Origin: a virus
Strand: one strand, 5' to 3'
Virus record (IMG/VR): IMGVR_UViG_3300006641_000097
Location: 1-32,487 of that record
Length of the DNA: 32,487 nucleotides
Position 1 is the first letter of the stretch. Every line of letters begins with the position of its first letter. The notes below the pieces were generated by a model that was not told where the DNA came from, did not search any database, and saw nothing but the letters and a program-made list of their open reading frames with translations. A program made the position numbers and the translations under genes. Below are positions 39-32,487 of the stretch, piece by piece.

Positions 39-404
39 GTGGTGGATGTGGCGTTGATGGGTTCGGTGGCGGCGTTCGTCGATGGCCTCGTGTTGGATGC
101 TCGGGGTCGGGTGTTGGCCGACCTGGCGTTGAGCTTGGCGGCGACGTTGGATGCCGGCTGCGAGTCGGGGTCACCTGCGGCGGTGGCGAAGGAGCTGCGG
201 GCGACGCTGGACGAGCTGACACCGAAGGGGACCGATGCCGACGATGACTGGACAGCGGTCGCTGATCTTGCCTCGGTTCGGGACACCTCGGGACGAGCGG
301 CGGGAGACGCTGGGCGGTCAGGTGGCGCTCGTCGCCGACCGGCTGGGGATGCCGCTGTACCCGTGGCAGCGGCACGTGATCGACGTCGCTCTCGAGCTGG
401 ATGA
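39..404 (+). CDS. terS: putative small terminase subunit (TerS)
   Basis: About 120 residues; the conserved-looking part is the first 75, with a helical LDARGRVLADLALSLAATLD stretch and an AAVAKELRATLDEL stretch typical of small terminase subunits of actinophages. It would bind the packaging site and hand DNA to TerL, which follows directly. The start is uncertain: GTG at 39, GTG at 48 (behind AAGGTGG at 36-42) and ATG at 57 are all in frame, and the frame is open to the left edge of the window. The stop lies about 170 nt inside terL. The tail after about residue 85 is low-complexity Arg/Ala/Gly and may be real overlap or the mark of a sequencing error. The call rests on position and helical pattern. 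Confidence 0.6.
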   Translation: MVDVALMGSVAAFVDGLVLDARGRVLADLALSLAATLDAGCESGSPAAVAKELRATLDELTPKGTDADDDWTAVADLASVRDTSGRAAGDAGRSGGARRRPAGDAAVPVAAARDRRRSRAG

Positions 405-1752
405 CGACGGCCGGTTCGTCTACAAGGAGATCGATCTCACGGTTCCTCGCCAGTCGGGGAAGACGACGTTGCAGCTGGCGAAGATGGTGTGGCGGGCGAC
501 GATCGCTCAACGGTCGCTGGGTCGTCAGACGATCACGTACACGGCGCAGACCCGTAACGCTGCCCGCCGGAAGCTTGAGCGTGACTTCGCTGAGGCGTTG
601 CGGATGTCGCCGGGGTCGTCGTTCCGTGAGGTCCGCAACCCGCGTGACCGTCCGTCGCGGGCGACCGAGTGGAAGTTGTCGTTGAACAACGGCTCCGAGC
701 ACATCCTGTTCGGCCGCGGCAACTACTTGAACATCGACGCTCCGACGAAGCGTGCCGGTCACGGTGACACCCTTGACGACGGCACGATCGATGAGGCGTT
801 CGCTCATCAGACCGACGACGTCGAGCAGGCGATGGAACCTGCGATGCAGACCCGCCGCAACAGCCAGCTGTGGGTGTTGTCGACGGCCGGCGACGAGAAC
901 AGCCTGTACCTGTGGCGCAAGGTGGTGGCCGGTAGGCGGGCGTGTGAGACAGGGGATCATGGTCGGGTCGCGTACTTCGAGTGGTCGCTGCCGGATGATG
1001 CGCCGTTCGACGACGAGGATCTGTGGGCGTCGTTCCACCCGAACATCGACCATCCCGAGGTGCTGGCGTCGATGCGGGCGGCGTTGTCGAAGGCGTTGCG
1101 TAACCCGGATGACCCGGACGCCGGCCTCAATGCGTTCCGTCGTGGGTTCTGCAATCAGTGGCCGAAGGTGCCCCGGTTGCCGTCGGATCGGGTGAATCTG
1201 CCGATCCCGGTCGAGGCGTGGGATGCGTGCCTCGACCAGGTGTCGTCTCCGTCGGATCCGGTCGTGTTCGCTGTCGACTCGGCGCCGGACCGATCGTGGT
1301 CGACGATCGTGGTCGCCGCCCGCCGCCCGGACGGGCTTGTGCACGTCGAGATCGTCGACAGCCGGGCCGGGGTGTCGTGGATCGGGCCGGCGATGACTTC
1401 GCTGGTGTCCGCCTGGTCGCCGGTGGCGGTCGTTGTCGAATCGAGGTCGCCGGCGATGTCGGAGCTGGCGCAGCTCGAGGCGTCGGGTGCGTCGGTGGTC
1501 AAGGTGCCGGTGGCGCAGTACGCAGCGTTCTGCGGCGGGTTCAAGGACCGGGTCGCTGAACGCACCGTCCGGCATCGCGGTGAGATGGGGTTCCGGTTGG
1601 CGCTCGACGGGTTGCGCAGCCGCAAGGTCGGCGAGTCGCTGTTCAGCTGGTCGCGGGCCGACGCCACGGCGGACATCACGCCGATCGTCGCCGCCACCCT
1701 GGCGGTCGCTCACCTGCCCGTGTCGGGGCCGTCGCCGTTCTTTGCCTACTGA
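235..1752 (+). CDS. terL: terminase large subunit (TerL), ATPase/nuclease
   Basis: 505 residues, full length for a siphovirus TerL. It pumps DNA into the procapsid and cuts the concatemer. The N-terminal PRFGTP block is followed by YPWQRHVIDVALELD, Walker A PRQSGKT (about 71-77), Walker B TIDEA (about 184-188, acidic pair D186/E187) and the coupling motif LWVLSTAGD (about 212-220). The RNase H-like nuclease half contains VVFAVDSAPDRS (about 343-354), VVVESRS (about 400-406) and a late Asp in ADITPIV (about 480), which fit its metal-binding acidic residues. ATG 235 follows AGGGG at 226-230; ATG 244 is the alternative. The gene overlaps terS in another frame. Confidence 0.95.
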   Translation: MPTMTGQRSLILPRFGTPRDERRETLGGQVALVADRLGMPLYPWQRHVIDVALELDDDGRFVYKEIDLTVPRQSGKTTLQLAKMVWRATIAQRSLGRQTITYTAQTRNAARRKLERDFAEALRMSPGSSFREVRNPRDRPSRATEWKLSLNNGSEHILFGRGNYLNIDAPTKRAGHGDTLDDGTIDEAFAHQTDDVEQAMEPAMQTRRNSQLWVLSTAGDENSLYLWRKVVAGRRACETGDHGRVAYFEWSLPDDAPFDDEDLWASFHPNIDHPEVLASMRAALSKALRNPDDPDAGLNAFRRGFCNQWPKVPRLPSDRVNLPIPVEAWDACLDQVSSPSDPVVFAVDSAPDRSWSTIVVAARRPDGLVHVEIVDSRAGVSWIGPAMTSLVSAWSPVAVVVESRSPAMSELAQLEASGASVVKVPVAQYAAFCGGFKDRVAERTVRHRGEMGFRLALDGLRSRKVGESLFSWSRADATADITPIVAATLAVAHLPVSGPSPFFAY

Positions 1753-3809: not shown

Positions 3810-3839
3810 GGTCAACGCAATGCACACCCCCCGTTGACC
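3810..3839 (+). promoter_or_regulatory. 8-bp perfect inverted repeat ahead of the capsid gene
   Basis: GGTCAACG (3810-3817) and CGTTGACC (3832-3839) form a perfect hairpin with a 14-nt loop, ending 3 nt before the capsid ribosome binding site AGGAGG (3842-3847). It lies in the 137-nt gap between protease and capsid genes, by far the largest gap in the head region. It could be an mRNA stabiliser or processing site for the most abundant transcript, or a protein binding site. The sequence contains TTGACC, but no convincing -10 follows. Confidence 0.5.
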
Positions 3840-3854
3840 CCAGGAGGTCCACCC

Positions 3855-5210
3855 ATGTCCACCCTCATCGAGCGCGTCCGCGCTCGCATCACCGAACTGA
3901 CCGCCCAGCGCGCCGATATCGACGCAGAGCTGGACGGCATCGTCGCCGACCCCGAGGCCCGTGGCTTCGACTCGACCGACGCCGCCCTCGCCCGCGTGAA
4001 CGAGCTGCGCGACGCCGGCCGTCAGGCCGACACCGACCTGGCCGCCGCCACCGAGCAGCTGAACGCTCTCACCGCCCAGGAGGAGCGCCAGGTGGCCGCA
4101 GTGCCGGCCCGCCCGGTCAACGTCGGCGGCGCCGTCGTGCGTTCCGAGGAGCGCACCTACGACGCCCACCGCCACGACCGCAGCTTCTTCGTCGACGCCT
4201 ACCGGGCCGAGTTCGGTCGCGACACCGAGGCCGCCGACCGCATCCAGCGGCACATGCGCGAGGTCGCCATCGAGCGCCGCGACATCACGTCGTCGACGCT
4301 CAACGGGCTCATCCCGCCGGTGTACCTGCTCGACCAGGCGGCGACGCTCGCCCGCGCCATGCGGCCGTTCGCCGACGCCGTCCCCGGCTACACGCTGCCG
4401 CAGACCGGCATGTCCGTCGTCGTCACGAAGGTGACGACCGGCACCGCCGCCGCCGCGCAGACGTCGGAGAACACCGCTGCGCAGGAGACGAACCTCGTCA
4501 CCACCGACCTGTCGGTGCCCGTCGTGACCGTCATGGGCCAGCAGGACCTGTCCCGCCAGGCCATCGAGCGTGGCGCCGTCACCGACGCCCTGGTGTTCGC
4601 CGACCTCGTCGCCGACTACGCGACGAAGCTCGACGCCCAGTGCATCAACGGCTCGGGCGCGAACGGGCAGTCGTTCGGCATCATCACCACCACGAGCGTC
4701 GGCACCGACAGCTATGCGGCGACGACCGTCGCCGCGTTCTACGGCTCCATCAACGCCGCTCTCTCCCGCGTGGCGTCGAACCGGTACGCCCCGGCGACCG
4801 TCATCGTCATGCACCCGCGCCGCTGGCACTGGCTGCTGTCGAAGGGTGACAGCACCGGTCGGCCGTTCGTGGTGCCATCGGAGCGGGTCGCGTGGAACCC
4901 GACCGGGATCGGTCAGACCGAGGGCTCCGGCATCGCCGGCACCCTCGCCGGGCTCCCCGTCATCGTCGACGCCAACGTGCCGACGAACCTCGGCGCCTCC
5001 ACCGACGAGGACCGGGTCATCGTGACCCGCCTCTCCGACCACGCCCTGTGGGAGTCGCCGGTGATGACCTTCGCGTTCGACCAGGCGCTGAACCCGCCCG
5101 CGTCGATCCGGCTGGCCGTCGCCGGGTACCACGCCTTCACGGCGGGCCGCTACCCGGCTTCGACCTCGCTGGTGCAGGGCACCGGCCTGGTCGCCCCGAC
5201 GTACGGCTGA
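3855..5210 (+). CDS. major capsid protein, HK97 fold
   Basis: 451 residues from ATG 3855 behind AGGAGG. Residues 1-85 are a charged, Ala/Glu/Arg-rich coiled coil (STLIERVRARITELTAQRAD...), the internal scaffold or delta domain expected to be removed by the protease. From about residue 110 the HK97 body follows: TSSTLNGLIPPVYL, an RAMRPFADAVPGYTLP N-arm/E-loop region, ENTAAQETNLVTTDLSVPVV, the spine-helix region, HPRRWHWLLS and GLPVIVDANVPTN in the A-domain, and a C-terminal PASIRLAVAGYHAF strand. The upstream hairpin and the downstream strong hairpin suggest a separately controlled, highly expressed unit. Confidence 0.93.
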   Translation: MSTLIERVRARITELTAQRADIDAELDGIVADPEARGFDSTDAALARVNELRDAGRQADTDLAAATEQLNALTAQEERQVAAVPARPVNVGGAVVRSEERTYDAHRHDRSFFVDAYRAEFGRDTEAADRIQRHMREVAIERRDITSSTLNGLIPPVYLLDQAATLARAMRPFADAVPGYTLPQTGMSVVVTKVTTGTAAAAQTSENTAAQETNLVTTDLSVPVVTVMGQQDLSRQAIERGAVTDALVFADLVADYATKLDAQCINGSGANGQSFGIITTTSVGTDSYAATTVAAFYGSINAALSRVASNRYAPATVIVMHPRRWHWLLSKGDSTGRPFVVPSERVAWNPTGIGQTEGSGIAGTLAGLPVIVDANVPTNLGASTDEDRVIVTRLSDHALWESPVMTFAFDQALNPPASIRLAVAGYHAFTAGRYPASTSLVQGTGLVAPTYG

Positions 5211-12053: not shown

Positions 12054-13336
12054 CCACGGTGCTCACCATCGGCCGCTGCGCCCTGTCGGAACCGCCCGAG
12101 ACGATCGACTGGTCCGGTGACCAGCTGTCGTTGACCGGGCAGCTGTGGGCGTCGTCGGCGGGCGAGCTGAAGGCGCAACGGGACCAGCTGCTCGGGTTGG
12201 TCGACAACCGTGACGAGCTGGTGTTCCCGGTGACGTTCACCGAGGACTCGACGCTCGACGGCTTCTACGTCGTCGAGTCGGCGTCGGTGGGGTCGTTGCC
12301 GACGATGTTGACGTCGTTTGTGGCGCCGTACTCGATCGCTTTGCGGCGTGTGGCGACAGTCGCTGTCTGCGAATCGGATGTCCTCGCCCAGGTCCGCACG
12401 AACGGGCATGGCACCTCGAGCGCTGAGGGTGTTGTCGGGGCGTGGCCGTATGACGCTGCCGGGTCTCGCTACAACTTCACGACGTCGTTCACATCGACGA
12501 CTGGTCCGGTGACTCGTGAGGGTGACCCGGCTGACGTTGTGGTGTTGGTGAAGACGGTGAGCTCGGCGACGACGGGCACGGTCGGGTTCTCGGTGGAGCC
12601 GGGGGACTGGTACACGGGTGCGGCGACGTTCGAGTGGAAGGCGGATGGGACGAACTGGTCGGCGGTGACTGGTCGTGATCTTCCGGCGGGGACGGCGGTG
12701 TCGGGGTCGTGGCGGATCTCGAACGGGTTGGTGCGGTTGACGCCTGCGACAGCCGGGTGTCTGGTGGAGGGGTACACGGGGTCGGCGTGGGAGTCGACGA
12801 CGATCGACGGGGCGACGAATGTCGGCGGGTTCCCGTTGCCGTTCACGTTGGGCGGTCACGGGTATGCCGGCGACATGGCGGTCCCGGTGATCTTGCGGAA
12901 CGACCCGGACTGTGTGGTGGTCCGCTGCGTCACCCTCGGCGTCTACTCGCCGGCTGAGCGGGTGGTGCAGACGTTCACGATCCGGCGGGGCATGTCGTTC
13001 GTCGAGTGCACCTTCCAGCAGGCGACTGCCACCAACTTCGGGTTGCGGTTCGCGTCGTCGACGGCGACGTCGGACCTGGCGACGGCGACCGCTGGGATCG
13101 TGATGACGTCGAACGACGCCTCCGGCAACAAGTGGTCGCTGATGGGTGCGTTGTCGATGTCGAACGACAACGCGAGTGGCCGCACGAGGACTGCGTCGAC
13201 GACGTCGGTGCCGGTTCAGTGCGCCGTCGGGTTCGTCCTCGACGGCACGACCGCACCGACGTACGGCACAGCCACGAAGCTGCTCGCCCAGTTCCTCATC
13301 GCGGTCGACACCAAGACCCGGGTCGTGTTGCCGTGA
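12050..13336 (+). CDS. minor tail protein, distal-tail (Dit)-like
   Basis: About 428 residues from ATG 12050 (ATGA overlap with the tape measure). The first 120 residues (CALSEPPETIDWSGDQLSLTGQLWA, LKAQRDQLLGLVDNRDELVFPV, GFYVVESASVGSLP) match the N-terminal layout of Dit-like minor tail proteins of actinophages. A Thr/Ser/Gly-rich beta C-terminal half follows, likely a carbohydrate-binding or capping domain. It would sit at the tail tip between the tube and the hub protein encoded next. Confidence 0.8.
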   Translation: MTTVLTIGRCALSEPPETIDWSGDQLSLTGQLWASSAGELKAQRDQLLGLVDNRDELVFPVTFTEDSTLDGFYVVESASVGSLPTMLTSFVAPYSIALRRVATVAVCESDVLAQVRTNGHGTSSAEGVVGAWPYDAAGSRYNFTTSFTSTTGPVTREGDPADVVVLVKTVSSATTGTVGFSVEPGDWYTGAATFEWKADGTNWSAVTGRDLPAGTAVSGSWRISNGLVRLTPATAGCLVEGYTGSAWESTTIDGATNVGGFPLPFTLGGHGYAGDMAVPVILRNDPDCVVVRCVTLGVYSPAERVVQTFTIRRGMSFVECTFQQATATNFGLRFASSTATSDLATATAGIVMTSNDASGNKWSLMGALSMSNDNASGRTRTASTTSVPVQCAVGFVLDGTTAPTYGTATKLLAQFLIAVDTKTRVVLP

Positions 13337-14991
13337 CCGTCACGCAAGTCCTGATGGGGCCGGGTTCGTGGTCGTTGCAGCTGCGCGACGACACCCCGCC
13401 GTCCGTCCGCACCCAGATCCAGAAGCTGGACCATGTGGTGATCTGCCGCCGCAAGATCGACGCCGGTCTGCTGTACACCGATGCCAGCGCCCTGGCCGCC
13501 GTCAAGGCGCAAGGCGGCTACATCGGCGTCATCTTGGACACGCAGGGCCGCACCGGCCTCTCCGGTCAAGATCCCTACTGGTGGATCGCCAGGAAGCGGC
13601 TGACGAGTCAGATCACCCTCACGTCGACGAACACGTCGACGTGGCTCGACCAGATCTTCCCGGCGAACGGGATCACCAAGGGGTCGGTCACGAACGGGAC
13701 ATCGTTCGCCGGTGTCGTCGACATCGGCCGCATGGTCGGCGAGACGCTCGGATGGATCTGCGAGAACGCCGGCGTCGAGTGGCGGCTCCGCCCCGACTTC
13801 AGCGTCGACGTGGCCCCGTCGACGACGCTGTTCCCGGCCGCCACCACGACCTCGGCGGCCGTCATCACCCGCAACGCCGCCGGAGACGAAGGCGGCCTGT
13901 CCGGGATCCTGGCTGACGCCGTCGAACTCGAGACCGACGCCACCGACATCGCTTCCGACGTCACCGTCGTCCACTCGGCCACCGACAAGAAGGTGAAGCT
14001 GGTCACGGCGACGACGACCCCGACCGGTGTGCGGTGGGTGGCGCCGGACGGGACCACACCGGCGATCACCGTGGTCGGCACTGCGAAGTCGTTGAAGCCG
14101 GCTGAAGCGTCGACGTACGCGACGAATCTCGTCGCCCGCCTGTCGGTGCTGAACCGGACGGTGCGGTTGTCGTCCGATTCGCACAACGTCACCGGTGACG
14201 TCGCCCCAGGGACCAGGGTGTGGGTGTACGACAGGGACGCCGACCTGTACGACACGTCGAACCAGGTGCCGTGGCGTGGCGAGGTGATCAGCCCGGTGCA
14301 GCTGCGGGTGGCGTCGATCACGTGGCCGGTGGTGGCTGGGATGGCGGTGTACGCCCGGCTCAACGGCGGCGCCACATGGCTCGACCTGTCCGACTACGTG
14401 GTGTCCGAGCCGGACACGGTGACGTGGGACGTGAACTTCACCGGGAAGCGCCGCAACCAGGCCCCGGTGGCGCTCGGGTACGTGTCGCTCAACATGGCCG
14501 GCGGCGGCGGTGGCGGCCAGGGCGGTCGACCCGCTCACGGCGACGCCCTCGCCGAGTCGGAGACGGACGCCGACGCCGGCGGCTGGACCCCGACATGGAC
14601 GAACGCAGCGAAGGGGACCGGTGGCTCCGCGGCGAACGCCGGCGCCTACACGATCGCCAAGGGGCAGATGAGGGTGCAGGCGGAGATCGTGCTCGGCACC
14701 GGCGGCGGGGCAGGCGTGACCGGCGCCGTGTCGGTCGCCATGCCGTCCGGCTGGCAGGCCGACTGCGTCTCCTCCCGCCGCCACATCGTCGGCACGGCGC
14801 GCGTCGTCGCCGCCGGCAATGAGTACGCCGGGTTCGTCGAGGTCGACGGCGGTACGCCCGGCTCGCTCCAGGTCCGCTGCTTGGACGTGGCGACCGGGCA
14901 GACGCAGGCACTGTCGGCGACCGTGCCAGCCACGTTCGCCGCCGGCGACGTGATCGACATCGACGTGATCATCGCAGTCGAACGCACCTGA
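13333..14991 (+). CDS. minor tail protein, tail-tip hub (Tal)-like with C-terminal receptor domain
   Basis: 552 residues, GTG start overlapping the Dit-like stop. Residues 1-385 contain WSLQLRDDTPPSVRTQIQKL, IDAGLLYTDA, QDPYWWIARKRLTSQITLTS, a GETLGWICENAGVEWRLRPD block and EVELETD-like segments, as in siphovirus hub proteins. A Gly-rich hinge (AGGGGGGQGG, about 393-402) leads to a C-terminal jelly-roll-like domain with WTPTWTNAAKGTGGSAANAGAYTIA (broken up in the protein by turns), a common receptor-binding or fibre module. Host recognition by this domain is inferred. Confidence 0.75.
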   Translation: MTVTQVLMGPGSWSLQLRDDTPPSVRTQIQKLDHVVICRRKIDAGLLYTDASALAAVKAQGGYIGVILDTQGRTGLSGQDPYWWIARKRLTSQITLTSTNTSTWLDQIFPANGITKGSVTNGTSFAGVVDIGRMVGETLGWICENAGVEWRLRPDFSVDVAPSTTLFPAATTTSAAVITRNAAGDEGGLSGILADAVELETDATDIASDVTVVHSATDKKVKLVTATTTPTGVRWVAPDGTTPAITVVGTAKSLKPAEASTYATNLVARLSVLNRTVRLSSDSHNVTGDVAPGTRVWVYDRDADLYDTSNQVPWRGEVISPVQLRVASITWPVVAGMAVYARLNGGATWLDLSDYVVSEPDTVTWDVNFTGKRRNQAPVALGYVSLNMAGGGGGGQGGRPAHGDALAESETDADAGGWTPTWTNAAKGTGGSAANAGAYTIAKGQMRVQAEIVLGTGGGAGVTGAVSVAMPSGWQADCVSSRRHIVGTARVVAAGNEYAGFVEVDGGTPGSLQVRCLDVATGQTQALSATVPATFAAGDVIDIDVIIAVERT

Positions 14992-17633: not shown

Positions 17634-17654
17634 GGTCACATGTGGTCACATGTT
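17634..17654 (+). repeat. candidate right integrase arm sites, tandem pair
   Basis: GGTCACATGT (17634-17643) and GGTCACATGTT (17644-17654) are adjacent direct repeats, matching 17430-17440. Each contains the palindrome ACATGT. They end 7 nt before the preferred integrase ATG at 17662, so integrase bound here could also repress its own gene. Confidence 0.6.
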
Positions 17655-17661
17655 GTCCGAG

Positions 17662-18807
17662 ATGGCACGTGCGAGATGGGGAACAGGGTCGATCACCGCC
17701 CGAGGTGCGGGGACGTGGCGGATCCGGCTGTCGCTGGGCGTCGATCCGGTCACCGGGCAGCGCCGTGTGCTGTCCGAGACGGTCCACGGGTTGAAGCGGG
17801 ACGCTCAACGCCGCCTCGACGAGCTCGTCCGTGAGCACGGCGACGTCCAGGTGCCGACCACGGCGACAGTCGCCACGTTGGCCTCCGAGTGGCTGCAGCT
17901 GCTGTCGGTGCGTCCGCAGACCGAAGCCGGGTATCGCCGTGCGGTGACCCGAGACCTGGTGCCGTTGCTCGGCGCCGCACGACTCGACAAGCTGACCCCG
18001 CTCGACGTGCAACGGGCCTACAAGCAGGCTGAGACCGCCGGGTGGGGTGTGCATCGGATCCGGTTGATGCACGCCGTCCTGTCGAAGATGTTGAACGACG
18101 CGGTCCGCTGGGGGTGGGTGCCGCGCAACGTCGCCGCCAACGTGCCGCTGCCGGCGTTACCGGCCCGCCAGGACCGGGCCCTCGACGCCGGGGAGGTCGG
18201 CAAGCTCGTGACCGCCGCCGGTCGGATGCGTCCATCGGTGGCGGTGTGGCTTCACCTGCATCTCGCCACCGGCGCACGACGGTCGGAGATCCTGGCGTTG
18301 CGTTGGTCGGACATCGACCTGGTCGGTGGCCGGATCCTGTTCTCGCGGACGTTGGAACGCCGAGACGGGGTGATCGTGGCCCGCCCCGGGTCGAAGACGG
18401 GGCGGATGAAGGTGGTGCCGGTCGGTGCGGCGACGGTGCAGATCCTCACCGAGCACCTCGAGCGAGGCGTCGCCGTCCTCGGCGAAGACCTCCCGGCGGA
18501 CGCCTACGTTCTGTCGTTCGAACCGGACGGGTCGGCGCCGTGGCAGCCGGACTACGCCTCGCACCTGTTCGGTGACCTGGCCGCCGCAGCGGGGGTGTCC
18601 GGGGTCCGGTTGCATGATCTGCGGCACACGGCGATCTCGCACATCATCGCCTCGACCGGGGATCTGTTGTTGGCGTCACGGATCGCCGGGCACAGCAGGA
18701 CGGCGACGACCGGCGACGTGTACGGGCATCTCCTGCCCGGCCAGTTCGACGCCGCCACCGAGTCGCTCGGCCGCCTCGCCGCCGGTGATCACACAGCCGA
18801 CGGGTGA
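17662..18807 (+). CDS. int: tyrosine integrase
   Basis: 381 residues from ATG 17662; ATG 17650 is in frame but lies within the arm-like repeats. The N-terminal ARWGTGSITARGAGTWRIRL is the usual arm-binding domain, residues about 70-150 the SAM-like core-binding domain (TLASEWLQLLSVRPQT, LHAVL-type helix), and the catalytic domain has Arg206/207 (TGARRSE), Lys245 (SKTGR), His318-x-x-Arg321 (LHDLRH), His344 (AGHS) and Tyr354 (GDVYGH). All catalytic residues are present. It recombines attP with attB; the likely attP lies directly upstream. The excisionase-like partner is far away in the early operon. Confidence 0.95.
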   Translation: MARARWGTGSITARGAGTWRIRLSLGVDPVTGQRRVLSETVHGLKRDAQRRLDELVREHGDVQVPTTATVATLASEWLQLLSVRPQTEAGYRRAVTRDLVPLLGAARLDKLTPLDVQRAYKQAETAGWGVHRIRLMHAVLSKMLNDAVRWGWVPRNVAANVPLPALPARQDRALDAGEVGKLVTAAGRMRPSVAVWLHLHLATGARRSEILALRWSDIDLVGGRILFSRTLERRDGVIVARPGSKTGRMKVVPVGAATVQILTEHLERGVAVLGEDLPADAYVLSFEPDGSAPWQPDYASHLFGDLAAAAGVSGVRLHDLRHTAISHIIASTGDLLLASRIAGHSRTATTGDVYGHLLPGQFDAATESLGRLAAGDHTADG

Positions 18808-18814: not shown

Positions 18815-19225
18815 TCAGTGCAGCATCGTCGACGCGTACGGTGCTGCGAGGGGGACACGGACGGCGAGGATGCCGTCGTCGGTTGTCCATTCGACGATGC
18901 TCCCGGGTTGCACGGTGGTCTCCTTGACGAGGAGGAACAGCAGCCCGAGCAGGAACAGGAACGCTCCGACGATCGCCAGAGCGACTGCCCATGACGGCGA
19001 CGAGCGCTTCACGTCGGGGGCGTCGACGACTTGGACGCTGCGGACCGATCCGGCTGGGAGGTGCACGACGGCCTGCCCGTCCGGGTCGTACAGCACGACA
19101 CTCCCGTCGTCGAAGGCGACGGTGCGCAACCTGCGAGGCGCCATGATCATCATCGGCATGTCGCACCGGACGACAGTTCCCAACGCATCGAGCTTCACAG
19201 CGGCCATCGCCGCAGCGTAGGTCAC
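18815..19225 (-). CDS. membrane protein of the lysogeny operon
   Basis: 136 residues; GTG start overlaps the ImmA-like stop (GTGA), ATG at 19207 is an alternative. Residues 1-75 are soluble and beta-rich (LGTVVRCDMPMMIMAPRRLR, VAFDDGSVVLYDPDGQ), one strong transmembrane helix follows near 79-101 (AVALAIVGAFLFLLGLLFLL), then a short outer tail. It is the last gene of the leftward immunity operon and ends 7 nt from the convergent integrase stop. Expression in the lysogen and membrane location make a superinfection-exclusion role possible, but nothing in the sequence proves it. Confidence 0.7.
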   Translation of the reverse strand: MTYAAAMAAVKLDALGTVVRCDMPMMIMAPRRLRTVAFDDGSVVLYDPDGQAVVHLPAGSVRSVQVVDAPDVKRSSPSWAVALAIVGAFLFLLGLLFLLVKETTVQPGSIVEWTTDDGILAVRVPLAAPYASTMLH

Positions 19226-19665
19226 CGGAACTGCCTGAGCGACGGGTGGCCGGCGTGGCGGGTGCGTTGCTCAAGCAGCCGGATCGCCCGGACAGCGACA
19301 TCGACAGGGACGTCGAACTCGTCGGCCACGTCCGTAGCGGTGACCCCGCCGTCGCTGCGGGTCAGGAAGTCGGCGAGGTCGTCCAGCGGCACGAGGCGGG
19401 CAGCGGTGATGGCGTCGACGATCGCTTCCTCTTTGCGGACGATCCCGATCGGGGTGTCGTCGTCGAACAGGAGACCACGTTCGTCGTGCACGAGCTCGTG
19501 GGCGAGCACGGCGCGCCGGTGGCGTTGATCGAGGCGGTGGTCGAGGATGACGATGCGTCGCCCGTCGCCGCCGTCGACGCAGATCCCTCGGGCGCCGGTG
19601 ACGTCAGCGAACGTCAGGTCGATGTGTGGGCGTCGTCGGAGTTCCCGCCACACCGCCCATGCCAT
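19222..19665 (-). CDS. ImmA/IrrE-type metallopeptidase
   Basis: 147 residues. RAVLAHELVHDERG carries HExxH zinc ligands (His56, Glu57, His60), and RKEEAIVDAITAARLVP supplies a downstream Glu (79/80) as third ligand, as in the ImmA/IrrE family. Such enzymes cleave cognate XRE repressors to derepress mobile elements (known for ICEBs1 ImmA). The XRE repressor of this operon is the obvious candidate substrate, though it is encoded four genes upstream. The C-terminal GGVTATDVADEFDVPVDVAVR looks like a small helix-turn-helix. The gap to the DUF2283-like gene is 33 nt. Confidence 0.85.
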   Translation of the reverse strand: MAWAVWRELRRRPHIDLTFADVTGARGICVDGGDGRRIVILDHRLDQRHRRAVLAHELVHDERGLLFDDDTPIGIVRKEEAIVDAITAARLVPLDDLADFLTRSDGGVTATDVADEFDVPVDVAVRAIRLLEQRTRHAGHPSLRQFR

Positions 19666-20635: not shown

Positions 20636-21024
20636 GTGTCCTCGCTGTCGTCGACGGGTGGCAGCGGCCGGTGTGAGGGCCGGCTGATGGTGGGCCGGGT
20701 GTTGCCGGTGTCGGCGGCGAGACGGAGTGCTGGGCGGGCTTCCAGCTGCTCGACTCGGGCGGTCAGGGCGTCGAGGCGGGCTTCGAGCTCGGCGACCCTG
20801 TCGGGGGCGGGGGAGCCGCTGGTGTAGCCGAACATGGTGGCGATCTCGCCGCCGGTGCCGAAGACGGTGTCCAGCGCCAGCGCGTGCCTCCGGTCCGGGG
20901 TCGACTTCCCCGTCTCCCACTTCGACACGGCGGCGTCCGACACGTCGTAGCAGGCACGGGCGACCTGGCGTTGCGTCGCAGGCATCGCTTCACGGATGGC
21001 TCGAAGGCGCTCACCAGGGCTCAT
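20632..21024 (-). CDS. XRE-family repressor (CI-like), candidate immunity repressor
   Basis: 130 residues from ATG 21024, which has AGGA upstream on the minus strand; an ATG at 21066 is in frame but adds a basic, non-family tail. The helix-turn-helix spans about 6-60: LRAIREAMPATQRQVARACY, then VSDAAVSKWETGKSTP with the recognition helix. Residues 75-98 form a coiled coil (DRVAELEARLDALTARVEQL) for oligomerisation, then a Pro/Arg/Asp tail. There is no LexA-type protease domain, so induction probably goes through the ImmA-like protease or another route. It heads the leftward operon, opposite the Cro-like gene. Confidence 0.85.
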   Translation of the reverse strand: MSPGERLRAIREAMPATQRQVARACYDVSDAAVSKWETGKSTPDRRHALALDTVFGTGGEIATMFGYTSGSPAPDRVAELEARLDALTARVEQLEARPALRLAADTGNTRPTISRPSHRPLPPVDDSEDT

Positions 21025-24761: not shown

Positions 24762-24913
24762 GCGTCTACCCGGACGGCATGGTCGCCGCCGACCTCGACG
24801 CCTGGTGGGGCGGCAACCACGTCTGCCCCGACTGCGGCCAGCAGACCGACGAACCCGAACAGCTGTGCGACCTGTGCAACCAGCGAACAGAGATGGAGGA
24901 AGAAGATGACTGA
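24758..24913 (+). CDS. 51-residue zinc-ribbon protein
   Basis: GTG 24758 overlaps the preceding stop; its end overlaps the pentapeptide gene by 8 nt. [20 protein letters not shown] holds two CxxC knuckles, followed by an acidic tail ending EMEEEDD. It is probably a small zinc-binding adaptor. No function is assigned. Confidence 0.7.
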
Positions 24914-25394
24914 CCGCATCGTGAACGGCTACACGGTCAAGCCCGGGGCCGACCTGTCCGGGGCCGACCTGTACGGGGCCAACCTGACCAGGGCCTACCT
25001 GTCCGGGGCCGACCTGACCGGGGCCGACCTGACCAGGGCCGACCTGACCGGGGCCGACCTGTACGGGGCCGACCTGTACGGGGCCGACCTGACCGGGGCC
25101 AACCTGACCAGGGCCGACCTGACCAGGGCCGACCTGACCGGGGCGAAGGGCATCCGCTGGGGGACCATCGGGCCGGTCGGCAAGGGACGACGGACGCTGA
25201 CCGCATGGGCGCACGACTCGCTGCCCGCCCCGATCATCGGCGGCGGATGCTTCCGTGGCACGTTCACCGAGTTCCGTGAGCTGATCGCTGGGGAGCCGTG
25301 GGAGTGGCCCGGCAGCGATCCGGTTGACATCGCCCGCTGGCGGGCCGAGTGCGCGGCTGCGGCGGACCTGCTCGAACTGGCAGTGACGGCATGA
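24906..25394 (+). CDS. pentapeptide-repeat protein
   Basis: 162 residues with GGAGGAAGAAG before the ATG. Thirteen uninterrupted A-(D/N/Y)-L-x-(G/R) units (residues about 15-79) would form a short right-handed beta helix of about three coils. A different C-terminal domain (80-162: [48 protein letters not shown]) follows. Gyrase-protecting pentapeptide proteins (Qnr, MfpA) are known DNA mimics, but they have many more repeats, so that role is only a possibility. The near-identical DNA units suggest recent expansion. Confidence 0.9.
24945..25139 (+). repeat. 13 tandem 15-bp coding repeats
   Basis: Thirteen units close to GGGGCCGACCTGACC encode the pentapeptides. They vary mostly at the last three to four bases (TCC/TAC/ACC, then GG or AG) and, in a few, at the second codon. 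The near-identity in DNA, beyond what protein conservation needs, points to slippage or recombination; copy number may vary between isolates and in assemblies. Confidence 0.9.
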
Positions 25395-25947: not shown

Positions 25948-26147
25948 TCGCCACCGTGACAGTCAGTAACCCATCGGTTGAGGTGGAGCACTTCCCCGAC
26001 CTCAACCATTGGGGCGTCCGGTTCCTCGACGCCGACCGCAACGTCCTCGCCGTCGTCACCTGCACCGACCCGTGGGAGTTGGCGACGCTGCTTCTTGACG
26101 CCAGCATGGACCTCAACGTGATGCTGTTGCAGGCGGCGGCGAAGTGA
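25944..26147 (+). CDS. small early protein of unknown function
   Basis: 67 residues from GTG 25944, overlapping both neighbours by 4 nt. Beta strands IATVTVSNPSVEVEHF, GVRFLDADRNVLAVVTC and a helix WELATLLLDASMDLNVML. No family is recognised. Position just before the Cas4-like nuclease suggests a role in early DNA metabolism, without direct support. Confidence 0.6.
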   Translation: MIATVTVSNPSVEVEHFPDLNHWGVRFLDADRNVLAVVTCTDPWELATLLLDASMDLNVMLLQAAAK

Positions 26148-27565
26148 GTGACGCCCGACGTGACCGCTGGGGCCGCTACCTCGTCCTGCCGCCCGGCGGC
26201 ACCAAGCCGATCGGCTACAGCCGGGCGACGACGAAGGCGAAGATCCTCGACGACCAGGGCGGGCTGATGCCGTGGGCGGCAACGGCCACCGTCGTCGGCG
26301 CCCTACGCCGGCCAGGGCTGCAGGCTCGCTGGGCCGCACTCCTCGCCGAGCACCCTGACCCGTGGTACGGCTCGCCCGAGTCGAAGGCAGCGTGCAAGCG
26401 GCTGGTTGAGGAGTGCAAGCAGGCGGGCGGGTCGACGGACCGGGCCGACCTCGGCACGGCGATCCACGCCATCATCGAGGGCATCGGGCGCGGCGGCACG
26501 CCGCTGCTCGACGACAGGATGCGCGCCGACGTCGACGCCTACCTCGACTGCCTCAACCGCTACGGGATCACCGTCGACCCCGAGATGATCGAGTCGATCG
26601 TCGTCCTCGACGCCTACCAAGTGGCCGGGACCGCCGACACGCTGCGCACCACCGTGCCCGGCCTTGACGACGTCGTCGGCGACCTCAAGACCGGCGCATC
26701 ACTCGACTACGGCGCCGCCGGCTACGCGATCCAGCTGGCCATCTACGCCAACGCCGACAACCGCTACATGCAGGGCGCAGCCGCCGACGGCAGCGAGGAC
26801 CGGCGGCTGCCGATGCCGAACGTGTCCCGCGAGCACGCCCTCCTCTTCCACCTGCCAGCCGGTGAAGCCCGCTGCACGCCGATCGTCATCAACATCGACG
26901 CCGGCTGGGACGCCTTCCACCGTGCGCTGGAGGTGGAGCAGTGGCGCAAGCGCAAGAACCTCCTGACCCCGCTGGGCGACCTGCTCGGCTCGCCCTCTCT
27001 TGTTCCCATTCCTCCCACGGCTGCTGCGTCGAGCGAACCTCCTCCGTTCGACGCGCCCGTGGCGAGTGCGGGCGCCGACGACTCCTCTCCGTCGGCGCCC
27101 GCTGCTTCGACCCGTGGCGACGAGCTCGCCGCCGTGCCGACGGCCACGCCCGACGAGGGCGGCCCGGCTGACGACGCCGCCGTCGCCCTGCTGCGCTCCC
27201 GCTACGCCGCCCTCGACGCCGCTGGGCGGGCGTGGATTGGCGAGCTGTGGAACCAGGCGCAGCGGCACCACGTCGGGTTTCACCTGCGGGACAACTACAC
27301 GGTGCGCCGCTTCGAGCTGCTGCGCGGCTTGACCCTCCTGTGCGCCGCAGGCGCCGACGATGACGAGACGCTGCGCACCGCCGTCGCCTCCGTTGTCGGC
27401 GCCGACTGGCCCCGTTTCGGCAACGTCGAGCCCGGTCACGCCCTCGGCGTGCTGGGCGCCGACGAGGCCGCCCGATTCGCCCTGCTGTGCGACGCCCTCG
27501 CCGCCGGCACGGCGACCGCCGACGTCAGCGACGCCGGCGTCGTCACCCTCCACATCCCCAACTGA
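26144..27565 (+). CDS. Cas4/RecB-like PD-(D/E)XK nuclease
   Basis: 473 residues from GTG 26144. Nuclease motifs in order: TAIHAIIEG (His108), MIESIVV (Glu150), VAGTADTL (Asp165), VGDLKTG (Asp180, Lys182) and YAIQLAIY (Gln197-x-x-x-Tyr201), i.e. the RecB/Cas4-type core, probably an exonuclease for recombination or concatemer processing. A Pro/Ala/Ser-rich linker (about 282-340) leads to a second helical domain (LRSRYAALDAAGRAWIGELW, QAQRHHVGFHLRD) of unknown role. The four Cys of an iron-sulphur Cas4 are not visible. The SSB-like gene follows 15 nt later. Confidence 0.85.
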   Translation: MSDARRDRWGRYLVLPPGGTKPIGYSRATTKAKILDDQGGLMPWAATATVVGALRRPGLQARWAALLAEHPDPWYGSPESKAACKRLVEECKQAGGSTDRADLGTAIHAIIEGIGRGGTPLLDDRMRADVDAYLDCLNRYGITVDPEMIESIVVLDAYQVAGTADTLRTTVPGLDDVVGDLKTGASLDYGAAGYAIQLAIYANADNRYMQGAAADGSEDRRLPMPNVSREHALLFHLPAGEARCTPIVINIDAGWDAFHRALEVEQWRKRKNLLTPLGDLLGSPSLVPIPPTAAASSEPPPFDAPVASAGADDSSPSAPAASTRGDELAAVPTATPDEGGPADDAAVALLRSRYAALDAAGRAWIGELWNQAQRHHVGFHLRDNYTVRRFELLRGLTLLCAAGADDDETLRTAVASVVGADWPRFGNVEPGHALGVLGADEAARFALLCDALAAGTATADVSDAGVVTLHIPN

Positions 27566-28290: not shown

Positions 28291-28695
28291 GTGATCGACA
28301 AGCTGATCCCGCTGGTGCGGCCAGAACCGTGGACGGAGCACGCCGCCTGCGGCGGGATGGACCCCAACATCTTTCACCCCGAGCGAGGCGACACCAGGGC
28401 CGTCCGTCGGGCGCTCGCCGTCTGCGCTGCCTGCCCCGTCGCCGCCGACTGCCTCGACTACGCACTGCGCATCGGCTCCACTGTCGGCATCCTCGGCGGG
28501 ACATCCGGCAAGCAGCGGCGAGGGATGCTGGCCGGCGGCAAGCGAGGGCTGCGCGACATCCCCTGCGGCACCTACGCCGGCTGGCGCAAGCACAAGCGGG
28601 AGGGCAGCGAGGCGTGCTTCGCCTGCTGTGAGGCGATGCGCTCATTCTCCCGACAGGCAGGCGCACGCCGCCGTGCCCAGCGGGGCGCGGCGTGA
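28291..28695 (+). CDS. WhiB-family regulator with extra C-terminal Cys motif
   Basis: 134 residues from GTG 28291 behind GAGGAAAGGACGAGG. Iron-sulphur ligands Cys20, Cys45, Cys48 and Cys54 (HAAC ... CAACPVAADC), then the GILGG turn of WhiB proteins (66-70). The C-terminal domain contains CGTYAGWRKHKREGSEACFA (Cys92, Cys109), with Cys112 and Cys113 next, a second Cys module that I also recall from actinophage proteins. WhiB proteins bind sigma factor region 4 and alter transcription or block host cell division and exclude other phages (known for WhiBTM4). It overlaps the resolvase gene. Confidence 0.92.
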   Translation: MIDKLIPLVRPEPWTEHAACGGMDPNIFHPERGDTRAVRRALAVCAACPVAADCLDYALRIGSTVGILGGTSGKQRRGMLAGGKRGLRDIPCGTYAGWRKHKREGSEACFACCEAMRSFSRQAGARRRAQRGAA

Positions 28696-29030
28696 CCAAC
28701 CCACAGAAACGGAAAGGCGACCAAGCCGAACGCGAAATCGCCGCCATCCTCACCGACCTCCTCGGCACGAAGGTGCGCAGGCGGCTCGGAGCGGGCAGGC
28801 AGGACGACACCGGCGACCTCGACGGCCTCGCCGACTGCACCGTCGAAGTCAAGTCGTACGCCGACACCCTCCGAGCGATCAACGTCGGCCTCACCGACCT
28901 CGAGCGTGAGCAGGCGCACTCCGGTGACACGTTCGGTGTCCTGTTCGTCCGCCGCCGTGGCGGCCGCTGGATCGCCGTCATGGACGTCCCCCGGTTCGCC
29001 ACCTTCTACCGAGAGGCGACGGGGCCATGA
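28692..29030 (+). CDS. Hjc-like Holliday junction resolvase / PD-(D/E)XK endonuclease
   Basis: 112 residues from GTG 28692 (GTGA overlap). KRKGDQAEREIAAIL (Glu), RRLGAGRQDDTGDLDGL (Asp) and CTVEVKSY (E-x-K) give the order E ... D ... E-x-K of the archaeal Hjc and phage resolvase-like nucleases. The end is WIAVMDVPRFATFYR. It probably resolves branched replication or recombination intermediates before packaging, working with the Cas4-like and SSB-like proteins. Confidence 0.8.
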   Translation: MTNPQKRKGDQAEREIAAILTDLLGTKVRRRLGAGRQDDTGDLDGLADCTVEVKSYADTLRAINVGLTDLEREQAHSGDTFGVLFVRRRGGRWIAVMDVPRFATFYREATGP

Positions 29031-29155: not shown

Positions 29156-29289
29156 CGACGCTGCGCTGCCCCACATGCGGCCAGACGGTCGTCGTCGCTG
29201 TCGCCGTCAAGTCGGCCAGCTGCGCCCACCGCGGCACACCCCACGACGCCCGCAAGCCGACCCCGATGATCGAGCAGGTTGACCGATGA
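29152..29289 (+). CDS. 45-residue zinc-finger-like protein
   Basis: ATG 29152 overlaps the previous stop; the TGA overlaps the primase ATG. RCPTCGQTVVVAVAVKSASC, then AHRGTPH: one CxxC knuckle plus Cys and His residues that could complete a zinc site. Small zinc ribbons beside replication genes are frequent in actinophages. No function is assigned. Confidence 0.55.
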   Translation: MTTLRCPTCGQTVVVAVAVKSASCAHRGTPHDARKPTPMIEQVDR

Positions 29290-31472
29290 CAGCCGACCCA
29301 GCCGACACGACAGGCGGCGATCCGCTCGCCGCCGCCCTCCACTACGCCTCGCTCGGCTGGCGGGTTGTCCCCATCAAGCCGGGGATGAAGCGCCCACCGA
29401 TGGAGTCGTGGCAGCACGCCGCCACCACCGACGAGAAGGTGATCCGTAACTGGTTCCGCGGCCTCTACCGGGGCCACGGCGTCGGCATCGCCACGGGCGA
29501 GGCGTCGGGCATCTTCGTGCTCGACGTCGACGTCTCCGACGGCAAAGCCGGCGACGAGACGCTGGCCGACCTGGAGGCGGAGCACGGCCCGCTGCCCGAC
29601 ACCGTGCGGGCGATCACCGGCACCGGTGGGCGACACATCATCTTCCTCCTGCCGCCCGGCCGCACGATCCGCAACAACGCATCGACACGCCTCGGCCCCG
29701 GCCTCGACATCAGAGGCAACGGCGGGCAGATCGTCGCCGCCCCGACCGTGCATCCCAACGGGCGGCCGTACTGCTGGGAGATCGACCACGCCCCCGGCGA
29801 CATCGCCGTGGCGATGGCCCCCGACTGGCTGCTCGACCTCCTCGACCCACCGGCGCCCGCTGCGCCCCCGCCCGCACCCACCCGCCTCGGCACCATCCTC
29901 AACTCCGACTCGATCATGGAGCGGATCAACGCTGACCACGACTGGCACCAGCTGCTCTACGCCGACGGCTGGAGCCGACACTCCGTCGACGCCCGCAACG
30001 GCGACACCCACTGGACGCGCCCCGGCAAGGATGTGCGCGACGGGGCGTCGGCCGTGCTGCACGAACCAGACGGGCCGCTCGTCGTGTTCTCCACCGACGC
30101 CTCGCTGGCTGCGCTCCACCGGCCCGAGCTGGCGATGCGAACAGGCGACGGGTTCAGCATGTCCAAGTTCGCCTACCTCGCCGCCACCCGCCACAACGGC
30201 GACCAGTCGGCCTGTGCAAGCGCCTACAGGACGGCGCTGAACGCCTCTCAGACGCTCGCTGTGACCGCTCAGGGCGGACAGGTGGCCTACGCCGCCCTGA
30301 CGGGCGCTGAGGCGCCTGTCGACGGCCTACTGATCGACTGGCAGACGTTCTGGGCCCGTGACCATTCGGCGAGCGAGTGGCTGATCGACCCGGTGCTCGC
30401 CGAGGGCCGCTCACACTCCATCTACGCCCCGGCGGGGACCGGCAAGTCGCTGCTCGCCCTGTGGCTCGCCGTCCGCATCGCCACCGGCAAGCAGGCGCTC
30501 GACACGACGCCCGCTGCGCCCCGACACGTCCTCTACCTCGACTATGAAATGACCGAGAGCGACCTGTACGAACGCCTCGACGCAATGGGCTACGGGCCCG
30601 ACACCGACCTCTCACGGCTCCACTACGCCCTCCTGCCGATGCTGCCACCGCTGGACACGGCTGAAGGTGGCCGCACCCTCGAGGCGCTGGCCGCACGGGT
30701 TGGCGCCGACGTCGTGGTCGTCGACACGTTCGGCCGTGCCGTCGAGGGCGACGAGAACGATGCCGACACGACGCGAGGCTTCTTCCGCCACACGGGGATG
30801 GTGCTCAAGGCGTCCGGTCGCACCGTCCTGCGCACCGATCACGCCGGCAAGGACCCGACGAAGGGGCAGCGGGGGAGCTCGGCAAAGAATGATGACGTGG
30901 ACGTCGTCTGGTCCATGACCGTCGTCGAGGGCGGCTACTCGCTGACCGCCAAGAAGCGACGGGCGGGCTGGATTCCCGAACAGGTGAACCTGACCAAGAT
31001 GGACGACCCCGAGCTCGGGTTCAGGATCACCGGCCTGCCCGCCATCCCAGCCGGCACACGGGAGACGATCCAGCTGCTCGACTCGCTCGACGTGCCCGTC
31101 GACGTGACGTCACGACGAGCGGCAGAGATGGTCAAGGACGCCGGGCACAAGGTGCGCCGAACCATCCTGCTGGCCGCCCTGAAGGCCCGTCGGCAGGCGC
31201 TAACGCCTGTGGATAACCCGGTCCAGATGAGGCCGAAAGTGGTTCCCGATCGGCGGGAACCACTCGGGAACCAGGGGGGTGGGAACCACCTCGGGAACCA
31301 CTCTGACCAAATCTGCATTTCACCTGGTCAGGACGCTGGGAACCACTCGGGAACCACCGGGAACCACCTTCACGCCGACTGGTTCCCGGTTTCCGTACCC
31401 CTAGGTACGGAACCGGAACCGCTGGTGGTTCCGGAATCAGCAGAGATTGACAATGATCCCTGGGCGTTCTGA
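29286..31472 (+). CDS. PrimPol-helicase replication protein
   Basis: 728 residues. The N-terminal bifunctional primase/polymerase has ALHYASLGWRVVPIKPGMKRP, VLDVDVSD (Asp80, Asp82) and GTGGRHIIF (His117). A linker with an R/H-rich region (LYADGWSRHSVDARNGDTHW) leads to the C-terminal RepA/DnaB-like ATPase: SIYAPAGTGKSLLALW (Walker A, about 380-388), LYLDYEMTE, DVVVVDTFGR (Walker B, about 473-480) and GQRGSSAKNDDVDVVW (sensor region). It primes and unwinds phage DNA at its own origin; no separate DNA polymerase is visible, so host polymerase is used. The last about 75 residues are encoded by the iteron cluster and are low-complexity. Confidence 0.93.
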   Translation: MTADPADTTGGDPLAAALHYASLGWRVVPIKPGMKRPPMESWQHAATTDEKVIRNWFRGLYRGHGVGIATGEASGIFVLDVDVSDGKAGDETLADLEAEHGPLPDTVRAITGTGGRHIIFLLPPGRTIRNNASTRLGPGLDIRGNGGQIVAAPTVHPNGRPYCWEIDHAPGDIAVAMAPDWLLDLLDPPAPAAPPPAPTRLGTILNSDSIMERINADHDWHQLLYADGWSRHSVDARNGDTHWTRPGKDVRDGASAVLHEPDGPLVVFSTDASLAALHRPELAMRTGDGFSMSKFAYLAATRHNGDQSACASAYRTALNASQTLAVTAQGGQVAYAALTGAEAPVDGLLIDWQTFWARDHSASEWLIDPVLAEGRSHSIYAPAGTGKSLLALWLAVRIATGKQALDTTPAAPRHVLYLDYEMTESDLYERLDAMGYGPDTDLSRLHYALLPMLPPLDTAEGGRTLEALAARVGADVVVVDTFGRAVEGDENDADTTRGFFRHTGMVLKASGRTVLRTDHAGKDPTKGQRGSSAKNDDVDVVWSMTVVEGGYSLTAKKRRAGWIPEQVNLTKMDDPELGFRITGLPAIPAGTRETIQLLDSLDVPVDVTSRRAAEMVKDAGHKVRRTILLAALKARRQALTPVDNPVQMRPKVVPDRREPLGNQGGGNHLGNHSDQICISPGQDAGNHSGTTGNHLHADWFPVSVPLGTEPEPLVVPESAEIDNDPWAF
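31239..31433 (+). repeat. iteron-like cluster inside the replication gene, candidate origin
   Basis: Seven direct GGGAACCA copies begin at 31255, 31266, 31281, 31293, 31338, 31349 and 31359, mostly 10-15 bp apart (near one helical turn). Reversed copies lie at 31241 and 31381, partial ones at 31409, 31415 and 31427. The first pair forms an 11-bp perfect inverted repeat (AGTGGTTCCCG 31238-31248 / CGGGAACCACT 31254-31264). Between the groups lies the least GC-rich stretch, flanked by CTGACCA (31303-31309) and TGGTCAG (31325-31331). Lambda carries its origin iterons inside gene O in a similar way. Confidence 0.7.
31391..31412 (+). repeat. 9-bp perfect hairpin at end of iteron cluster
   Basis: TTCCGTACC (31391-31399), loop CCTA, GGTACGGAA (31404-31412). 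With bulges it extends outwards over GGTTCCCGG and CCGGAACC to cover about 31381-31420. It may be a single-strand priming or binding structure of the origin, or terminate replication protein mRNA. Confidence 0.55.
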
Positions 31473-31524
31473 GCCGATGACGAACCGCCCGCCGACCCAC
31501 TCGACCCGACTGAAGGGACAACCA

Positions 31525-31989
31525 GTGAACCGATCCGACCTCGACCGCCTCGTCGCCTCGGCGTCCGCACTCCGCCCCGCCGCCCTCACCGCCCTACGCA
31601 CCATTGCCGCCCTCGAACGCGACGTCGACGGCTGGCCGCCACGAGGCGAGCAGTCGGGCGGGCGGGGCGGCGGTGACAGCTCACCCGTCGAGCGGGCCGT
31701 GCTCGGTGGCGGGCACTCGCCGCTCACGCTCGCCCGCGACCGCCAGAGGCTCGCTGAGGGCGTCAGGGACGCCGTCGACCGCCTCGACCACCTGCTGCGC
31801 CTGGCGGGCCGCTACGGGGCTCCTGTGGCCTCCTCGTCGGCGCTGCGCTGCACGGGCGGCGACGGCACCCCCGGCGCCCTCGACTGGGGCGACCCCACCT
31901 GCACCAACATCGCCGAGCCAGGCCGCACCACCGGCCTCTGCCACGCCTGCCGACTCCGGCGCGACCGCTGGCAGCGGCAAAGCGCATGA
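31525..31989 (+). CDS. helical protein with C-terminal Cys motif, unknown
   Basis: 154 residues from GTG 31525, with GAAGGGA 7 nt upstream; ATG 31477 is in frame but has no binding site. RSDLDRLVASASALRPAALT, ALRTIAALERDVDG and RLAEGVRDAVDRLDHLLRLA are helices; the end has SALRCTGGDGTPGALDW, then DPTCTNIAEPGRTTGLCHAC, a four-Cys zinc-binding arrangement similar to other actinophage proteins near replication genes. Role unknown. Confidence 0.65.
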   Translation: MNRSDLDRLVASASALRPAALTALRTIAALERDVDGWPPRGEQSGGRGGGDSSPVERAVLGGGHSPLTLARDRQRLAEGVRDAVDRLDHLLRLAGRYGAPVASSSALRCTGGDGTPGALDWGDPTCTNIAEPGRTTGLCHACRLRRDRWQRQSA

Positions 31990-31993
31990 GCCG

Positions 31994-32110
31994 ATGAGCC
32001 GCACCTGGGTATCCACCACAAACGCCACAACCCCTGCTACCGTCCAGGTAGTTGAGCCGTCGTGTCCACCCGGACCGGCGGCTCCTGCGCGTCAGGCTCC
32101 CCTCCGATGA
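31994..32110 (+). CDS. possible 38-residue ORF coupled to HNH gene (weak)
   Basis: ATG 31994 to TGA 32110, overlapping the HNH ATG by 4 nt. The product is Thr/Pro/Ala-rich (MSRTWVSTTNATTPATVQVV...) and has no ribosome binding site. The overlap is the only argument for it. Hairpins within it suggest that the stretch may be untranslated leader. Confidence 0.22.
   Translation: MSRTWVSTTNATTPATVQVVEPSCPPGPAAPARQAPLR
32054..32084 (+). promoter_or_regulatory. two-step hairpin upstream of HNH gene
   Basis: GAGCCG (32054-32059) pairs with CGGCTC (32079-32084), and inside it GTCC (32064-32067) pairs with GGAC (32072-32075). A smaller CTACC/GGTAG hairpin lies just before (32037-32051). Together they cover much of the 117-nt gap before the HNH gene and may form a terminator or a structured leader. 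Confidence 0.4.
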
Positions 32111-32388
32111 CCGACCGCAACCTCACACCCAACCAACGCCGAGGGCGCAAAGGCCGACCCTGGCAACGCACCCGCCAGCTCATCCTCGCCCGAGACGGCT
32201 ACCGCTGCCAGATCCGCGGACCACGCTGCACCGGCACCGCAACCACCGTCGACCACATCATCCCCCTCGAGATCGACGACACCCGAGCACTCGACCCCAC
32301 CAACCTCCGAGCAGCCTGCGGCCCCTGCAACTACGGCCACTGGGGACACAACACCACCCGCCAACCCTCCCGGCGATGGCTCCCATGA
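32107..32388 (+). CDS. HNH endonuclease
   Basis: 93 residues from ATG 32107 (GTG 32062 would add 15 residues). RTRQLILARDGYRCQIRGPR, CTGTATTVDHIIPL, then NLRAACGPCNYGHWG: the Cys pairs, the DH of the catalytic HNH core and the Asn are all present. HNH nucleases encoded beside terminase genes work with TerS/TerL in cos cleavage and packaging in HK97-like phages. If the ends of this sequence are joined, it lies about 140 nt before terS. Confidence 0.9.
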   Translation: MTDRNLTPNQRRGRKGRPWQRTRQLILARDGYRCQIRGPRCTGTATTVDHIIPLEIDDTRALDPTNLRAACGPCNYGHWGHNTTRQPSRRWLP

Positions 32389-32487
32389 ATGCCCCATGCA
32401 TGAACATGCAGCCACTCGGAACTCGCCCCCTGTTCCGCCCCCAACAACCACCACCGATTTCTTCTCTGACCAGGGACGATGCTGGAC
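32389..32487. other. non-coding right end, probable cos/packaging region
   Basis: 99 nt without a gene between the HNH stop and the window end. It contains the palindrome TGCATG-AA-CATGCA (32397-32410), and the 11-mer TGCATGAACAT (32397-32407) reappears inverted at 26-36. C-rich and T-rich stretches follow. In HK97-type cos phages the cohesive end site lies between the HNH and terS genes, which is where this stretch would be after circularisation. The exact cut cannot be read. Confidence 0.4.

Follow-up and report, generated by a model that had tools for sequence, protein, structure and literature searches.

The window analysed here is one virus record taken whole, 32,487 bases long, which its gene content identifies as a temperate tailed phage. 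In addition to the genes listed in Table 1, an ORF profile scan placed portal, protease, tail tube, and tape measure genes in the window. With terminase, portal, protease, capsid, and tail genes of its own, the record does not qualify as a satellite that relies on a helper phage for virion genes, and its WhiB gene suggests an actinobacterial host. The ORF at 24906-25394 encodes a pentapeptide-repeat protein (PF00805), within which CAGGTCGG occurs 10 times (24949-25136); this is a protein-level repeat, unrelated to the putative replication origin described below.

Table 1. Positions of genes and sequence features in the 32,487-base window
Feature	Positions	Strand	Remark
Terminase	235-1752		
Capsid	3834-5210		
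Integrase	17650-18807		
Metalloprotease	19222-19665	-	adjoins integrase
Exonuclease	26144-27565		
WhiB	28291-28695		
RusA	28692-29030		
Initiator gene (PrimPol, RepA-type helicase, C-terminal domain)	29286-31472	+	728 aa
C-terminal three-helix domain	31056-31202	+	proposed iteron reader (AlphaFold2, conservation, motif covariation)
DnaA box	31208-31216	-	
Iteron cluster I	31240-31300	+	one reversed GGGAACCA, then four direct copies
Central spacer with CTGACCA/TGGTCAG inverted repeat	31301-31336	.	less GC-rich; candidate unwinding site
Iteron cluster II	31337-31388	+	three direct GGGAACCA (11 and 10 bp apart), then one reversed
Two adjacent 9-bp hairpins	31391-31434	.	
Next ORF after array	31447-31989		

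The initiator encoded at the right end of the window contains a Prim-Pol domain (PF09250, E 1e-44, residues 17-181) and an AAA_25 domain (PF13481, E 2e-27, residues 362-523) in Pfam. Its helicase part carries a Walker A motif, and the helicase profile matched the RepA protein of RSF1010 (1g8y, E 3.7e-7, query 19-187), which places it in the RepA family. For the C-terminal domain, AlphaFold2 predicted three confident helices (residues 24-33, 42-51, and 58-72 of A2); the mean column identity is 51% for the helicase and domain alignment compared with 29% for the C-terminal domain alone, a domain far less conserved than the helicase core. Sequence searches with this domain returned nothing significant, and a PDB and fold search gave no significant structural match. 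The structural neighbors listed include DNA-binding helical domains (homeobox domain, Zur/Fur, AhrC, and StbA), and because none of them is significant, the domain can be called helix-turn-helix-like only tentatively.

Behind this domain lies a dense array of short repeats. There are nine exact copies of GGGAACCA in the 32.5 kb, all within 31240-31387, where 1.0 is expected per window and the maximum in 100 dinucleotide shuffles was 5. Seven of these are direct (starts at 31255, 31266, 31281, 31293, 31338, 31349, and 31359, with spacings of 11, 15, 12, 45, 11, and 10 bp) and two are reversed (31240 and 31380), in agreement with the initial annotation of this DNA, which had described seven direct copies with reversed ones at both edges; a degenerate reversed copy lies at 31426-31434. 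That annotation had also reported an 11-bp perfect inverted repeat, a less GC-rich central stretch bracketed by CTGACCA and TGGTCAG, and a 9-bp hairpin, each of which was recovered: the inverted repeat at 31238-31248 and 31254-31264, the bracketing words at 31303-31309 and 31325-31331 around a spacer of 51% GC (69% for the window), and the hairpin at 31391-31412. To these can be added a second 11-bp inverted repeat (31356-31366 and 31380-31390), a second hairpin directly behind the first (31413-31434), and a feature that the annotation had missed, a perfect DnaA box, TTATCCACA, which is the single TTRTCCACA in the window and lies 23 bp ahead of the first iteron. The locus has direct repeats beside a DnaA box, an arrangement shared with iteron origins that include DnaA boxes. 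The near-helical spacing that had been claimed holds only loosely because over 35 independent relatives the iteron spacings, which peak at 10, 12, 23-24, 33-37, and 45-49 bp, fit a period of ∼12 bp better than one of 10.5 bp. The hairpin pair folds at -20.7 kcal/mol (z = -5.8), the loop of the first being CCTA and the arms of the second carrying degenerate iterons. An intrinsic terminator was rejected for these hairpins because they lack a T-run, and a known RNA family was likewise tried for the element and rejected.

The iterons of the window are read in all three frames. When codons were shuffled so that the peptide was kept, the mean number of GGGAACCA copies was 3.3-3.8, and nine were reached in 0 of 1000 shuffles; among the relatives with a coding tail, 30 of 40 gave p < 0.01 in this test. 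In three lineages, wobble positions that fall within iterons are better conserved than those elsewhere (p 0.0004-0.008, in a leave-one-out test with iterons defined on the left-out row). The codon-shuffle nulls and the wobble conservation bear out the earlier suggestion of selection on the DNA, as opposed to the peptide.

Scans for relatives gave 111 loci, most of them metagenome contigs, and 58 were left once helicases of >95% identity had been removed. A genome scan contributed three relatives only, in Thermoleophilia and Acidimicrobiaceae MAGs; the helicase occurs in 3 of 296 genomes of a phylum sample, the starting genome counted among the 3, and a search of plasmids found distant helicases only. 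For each whole locus, the strongest local 8-mer array was sought with no preset motif, and its position was related to a zone reaching from 200 bp before the end of the C-terminal domain to 600 bp behind the stop codon. The best array of the locus fell within this zone in 45 of the 58 relatives, with 5.1 expected from the zone length (P ∼3e-37), the zone borders, filters, motif finder, and clade cut-offs having been chosen after the first arrays were seen. The top array lay elsewhere in 13 relatives, four of which (L041, L048, L052, and L083) have a zone array as the second strongest, and nine of the 58 have no clear zone array. One of these loci, L083, also has another strong array a long way from the helicase gene, with 12 copies of TCTCATCA in 129 bp (12164-12292).

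The place of the array follows the protein domain more closely than the end of the gene. In 46 relatives, the array starts at a median of 50 bp behind the end of the C-terminal domain, and the standard deviation of its start is 26 bp when measured from that point versus 99 bp when measured from the stop codon. The array is inside the ORF in 33 relatives, spans the stop codon in 6, and follows it in 7; where the protein tail is long, the array lies inside the ORF, and where the tail is short, the array comes after the stop.

The iteron motif itself exists in over 20 versions across lineages, among them GGGAACCA, GGGACGCG, GGCGCGGT, AGACAGGT, GGGGACCA, TGCACCTG, GGGAAACA, TCACGCCG, and many others, but the loci repeatedly share one arrangement, in which iteron cluster I is followed by a less GC-rich spacer, a cluster II spaced 12 and 10 bp, and a short-loop hairpin. 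With motifs fitted de novo, the order of a gap of at least 20 bp followed by ∼12 and ∼10 bp was found in 25 of 35 clades differing by >25% in the helicase, compared with a mean of 6.1 and a maximum of 15 in 2000 shuffles. The initial annotation had stated that an origin here would be refuted if relatives with the same gene did not conserve the repeats; the place and the layout are kept and the motif differs, a result that does not refute the origin. In 29 cases, the GC content of the spacer averages 0.10 below that of its own locus (t -6.0), and the gap ahead of the iteron triple often holds AAAACCCC- or CCAGGT-like words. The hairpin, whose short loop often includes TA, lies ∼150-245 bp behind the domain in relatives and is in the top decile of random segments in 38 of 58.

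DnaA boxes are enriched in the same zones, with 13 TTRTCCACA boxes in 29 kb of zone sequence versus 18 in 701 kb elsewhere (17-fold, P 6e-11). Most of them are just ahead of the first iteron, and a box occupies a place similar to that in the window in L041, L048, L050, L071, L088, L023, L061, L049, and L067; near many arrays of relatives, such boxes are absent. In the GGGACGCG lineage, 5-12 TTRTCCACA boxes are found ∼0.7-1 kb behind the C-terminal domain (L012 10576-10852; also L006 and L010), a cluster that we read as an additional DnaA-rich element next to the iterons.

Across 46 loci, the motif covaries with the C-terminal domain when the helicase is controlled for (partial Mantel r 0.385, p 0.0002) and much less so with the helicase when the domain is controlled for (r 0.12, p 0.02). 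The motif therefore tracks the C-terminal domain more closely than it does the helicase core. The covariation is moderate, and near-identical motifs occur with quite different domains, for example in the window and L027. At another locus, L018 (9942-10163), compared with L006 and L014, the helicase is close to the GGGACGCG lineage, but the C-terminal domain has diverged and other repeats stand in place of the RDA (GGGACGC) ones, which looks like a recent switch of specificity.

Arrays of this kind are also present in named elements. In the isolated Streptomyces phage mu1/6, eight copies of ACCTGCCC inside the 3' end of gp21 form the strongest array of the 38-kb genome, at 14134-14311 of record DQ372923, and are followed by a hairpin. 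The mu1/6 gene resembles that of the window in its helicase family, the place of the array inside the gene, and the hairpin, and it differs in its motif and in that no PrimPol domain was found in the 6.7-kb gp21 region; no description of the mu1/6 origin was found in the literature searched. Arrays lie directly behind the primase-helicase (RepA-type) genes of Idiomarinaceae phage 1N2-2 (AAATGTAC x5, L125 5073-5277) and Faecalibacterium phage FP_Lugh (AAAATAGC x4, L126 5210-5294), and directly behind a gene annotated "helicase RepA family" in an Escherichia coli element (NZ_CP031350, AAAGTGAG x5, L128 4905-5094). This last element also has integrase, AlpA, PerC, and capsid genes and appears to be a capsid-forming phage satellite. 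Two Manatee Spring phages (L129 3835-3929 and L127 3578-3678) have arrays mid-gene and upstream of RepA-type genes, which may mark alternative origin sites within this helicase group. No array was found behind the RepA-type helicase gene of Caulobacter phage RW, and the helicases of BFK20 (gp43) and Gordonia phage Evaa have different C termini and no array.

The initial annotation had tied the array to a PrimPol-helicase gene, a link to PrimPol that the relatives do not bear out. Of the 58 relatives, 36 have PrimPol fused to the helicase; no PrimPol was detected in the other 22, some of which are truncated upstream, and 16 of these 22 still have the array as their top one. Given its non-detection in these relatives and in the mu1/6 gp21 region, the array goes with the helicase and the C-terminal domain. 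Nor did the proposed GC-skew check lend weight to the origin. In the window, the skew minimum is at 32471 and the maximum at 20869, and GC3 skew is lower in plus-strand genes beyond 23 kb than in those before 19 kb (p 0.015). If the ends of the record join, this pattern is weakly compatible with an origin close to the array. The mu1/6 skew has no minimum at its array, and for that reason GC skew was not used as evidence.

Based on the place of the array in relatives, the DnaA boxes, and the motif-domain covariation, by far the best reading is an origin within the initiator gene or next to it; the initial annotation had proposed one inside the gene. The repeat block is very probably the site at which replication of this phage starts, and we put a probability of about 0.82 on the fuller proposal that 31208-31434 is a phage origin lying in the coding sequence of the protein tail, with an array read by the C-terminal domain of the phage's own helicase. 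The mechanism with the best support involves a self-loading initiator helicase, which would bind two clusters and open the spacer between them. The three-helix domain behind the RecA-like helicase core would bind the iterons, and helicase rings loaded by copies on both clusters would flank the less GC-rich spacer. The spacer would open, in many lineages with the help of host DnaA at the adjacent box. The helicase would then unwind outward from the spacer, and the fused PrimPol, or another primase where PrimPol is absent, would prime; behind cluster II, the hairpin with its short loop probably serves as a signal for single-strand priming or for loading. We also consider it more likely than not that a family of RepA-type self-loading phage helicases reads its origins through this new three-helix domain, with more than 20 switches of specificity, the iterons of each origin changing jointly on a fixed scaffold, and that the stop codon slid freely over the origin, so that the C-terminal tail would in effect be translated origin DNA.

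Iteron arrays often also autoregulate, and the array precedes the next ORF, as would suit an operator at which the initiator or some other regulator controls itself or the genes downstream, with the origin elsewhere. This reading is unlikely, as the array is at the 3' end of the gene and not at a promoter, is accompanied by DnaA boxes and a hairpin, and keeps a set distance from the helicase C-terminal domain but not from the stop codon; the lack of a sigma70-like promoter in 31000-32487 is a weak further argument, since actinobacterial promoters may differ. Less probable again is a lambda-O-type origin, where the protein would only mark the site and hand over to the host replicative helicase: iterons inside an initiator gene with a less GC-rich stretch are what such an origin would have, but this protein includes a RepA-type helicase of its own, with Walker A motif and, in the window, a PrimPol, and the array follows the proposed DNA-binding domain on its 3' side and need not be translated. 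Direct repeats can be parS- or pac-like, but we give still less credence to a partition, packaging, or recombination site, as the motif tracks the helicase C-terminal domain, no par-like match was present among the ORFs scanned, an integrase gene is present, and the terminase gene is at the opposite end of the record. A low-complexity or peptide repeat with no DNA function, to which the GNQ/GNH reading of the tail might point, is scarcely credible and was rejected on the codon-shuffle nulls and wobble conservation, with the three reading frames, the reversed copies, and the arrays after the stop codon in relatives also contradicting it; the true peptide repeat of the window, by contrast, is the Pfam pentapeptide repeat.

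Among known systems, phage lambda has its iterons between the DNA-binding and P-binding parts of the nonenzymatic initiator O. The likeness to lambda O seen in the initial annotation stands insofar as the iterons (31240-31388) are inside the initiator gene. It breaks down in that O is no helicase, whereas by sequence a helicase domain is part of the same protein here, and in that the lambda iterons separate two needed protein parts, whereas those of the window follow the proposed DNA-binding domain and sit in a tail missing from some relatives; the array can also come wholly after the stop. The RepA/RepB'/RepC and oriV system of RSF1010 also combines a RepA-related helicase, iterons, hairpins, and its own primase; helicase, primase, and iteron binder (RepC) are three proteins there, with ssi sites for the RepB' primase, and would be one polypeptide here. 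On pRN1, the PrimPol-helicase gene ORF904 has a required stem-loop behind it (PMC4234260). This essential cis element resembles the proposed origin here in its place close to the end of the gene and in a structure that is kept as the sequence changes, but pRN1 has an SF3 helicase and a 100-nt stem-loop, with no iteron array reported (PMC4234260). Origins inside repA or adjoining it have been suspected in mycobacteriophages, where no repeats were found (PMC7157519). The relatives described here offer a rule for finding origins in poorly studied, mainly actinobacterial phages, namely to look ∼50 bp past the point where the C-terminal domain of the RepA-type helicase ends, and compact replicons for actinobacterial vectors could come from such origins.

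The window is closer to the rep-ori of SaPIs and PICIs than to lambda O. These satellites have a Rep helicase with a C-terminal origin-binding domain (PMC7581432, PMC6092414). In both systems, the origin, proposed here, is directly 3' of the known or proposed DNA-binding domain of the initiator (the array starts at a median of 50 bp in our 46 relatives), two iteron sets flank a melting region (a candidate one here), and the helicase C terminus reads, or here is proposed to read, the origin. The SaPI Rep is D5/AAA+-like, whereas the helicase here is of the RepA/RecA type (AAA_25); where SaPIs and PICIs have an AT-rich region, the two iteron sets here enclose a spacer that is only 10 points less GC-rich than its locus; and the phage loci add DnaA boxes and a hairpin and have the origin mostly inside the coding sequence. 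With more than 20 natural initiator-iteron pairs on one scaffold, the code between domain and origin and their joint change become directly testable, and the rep-ori organization, described as unique to phage satellites, would extend to tailed phages with an unrelated helicase.
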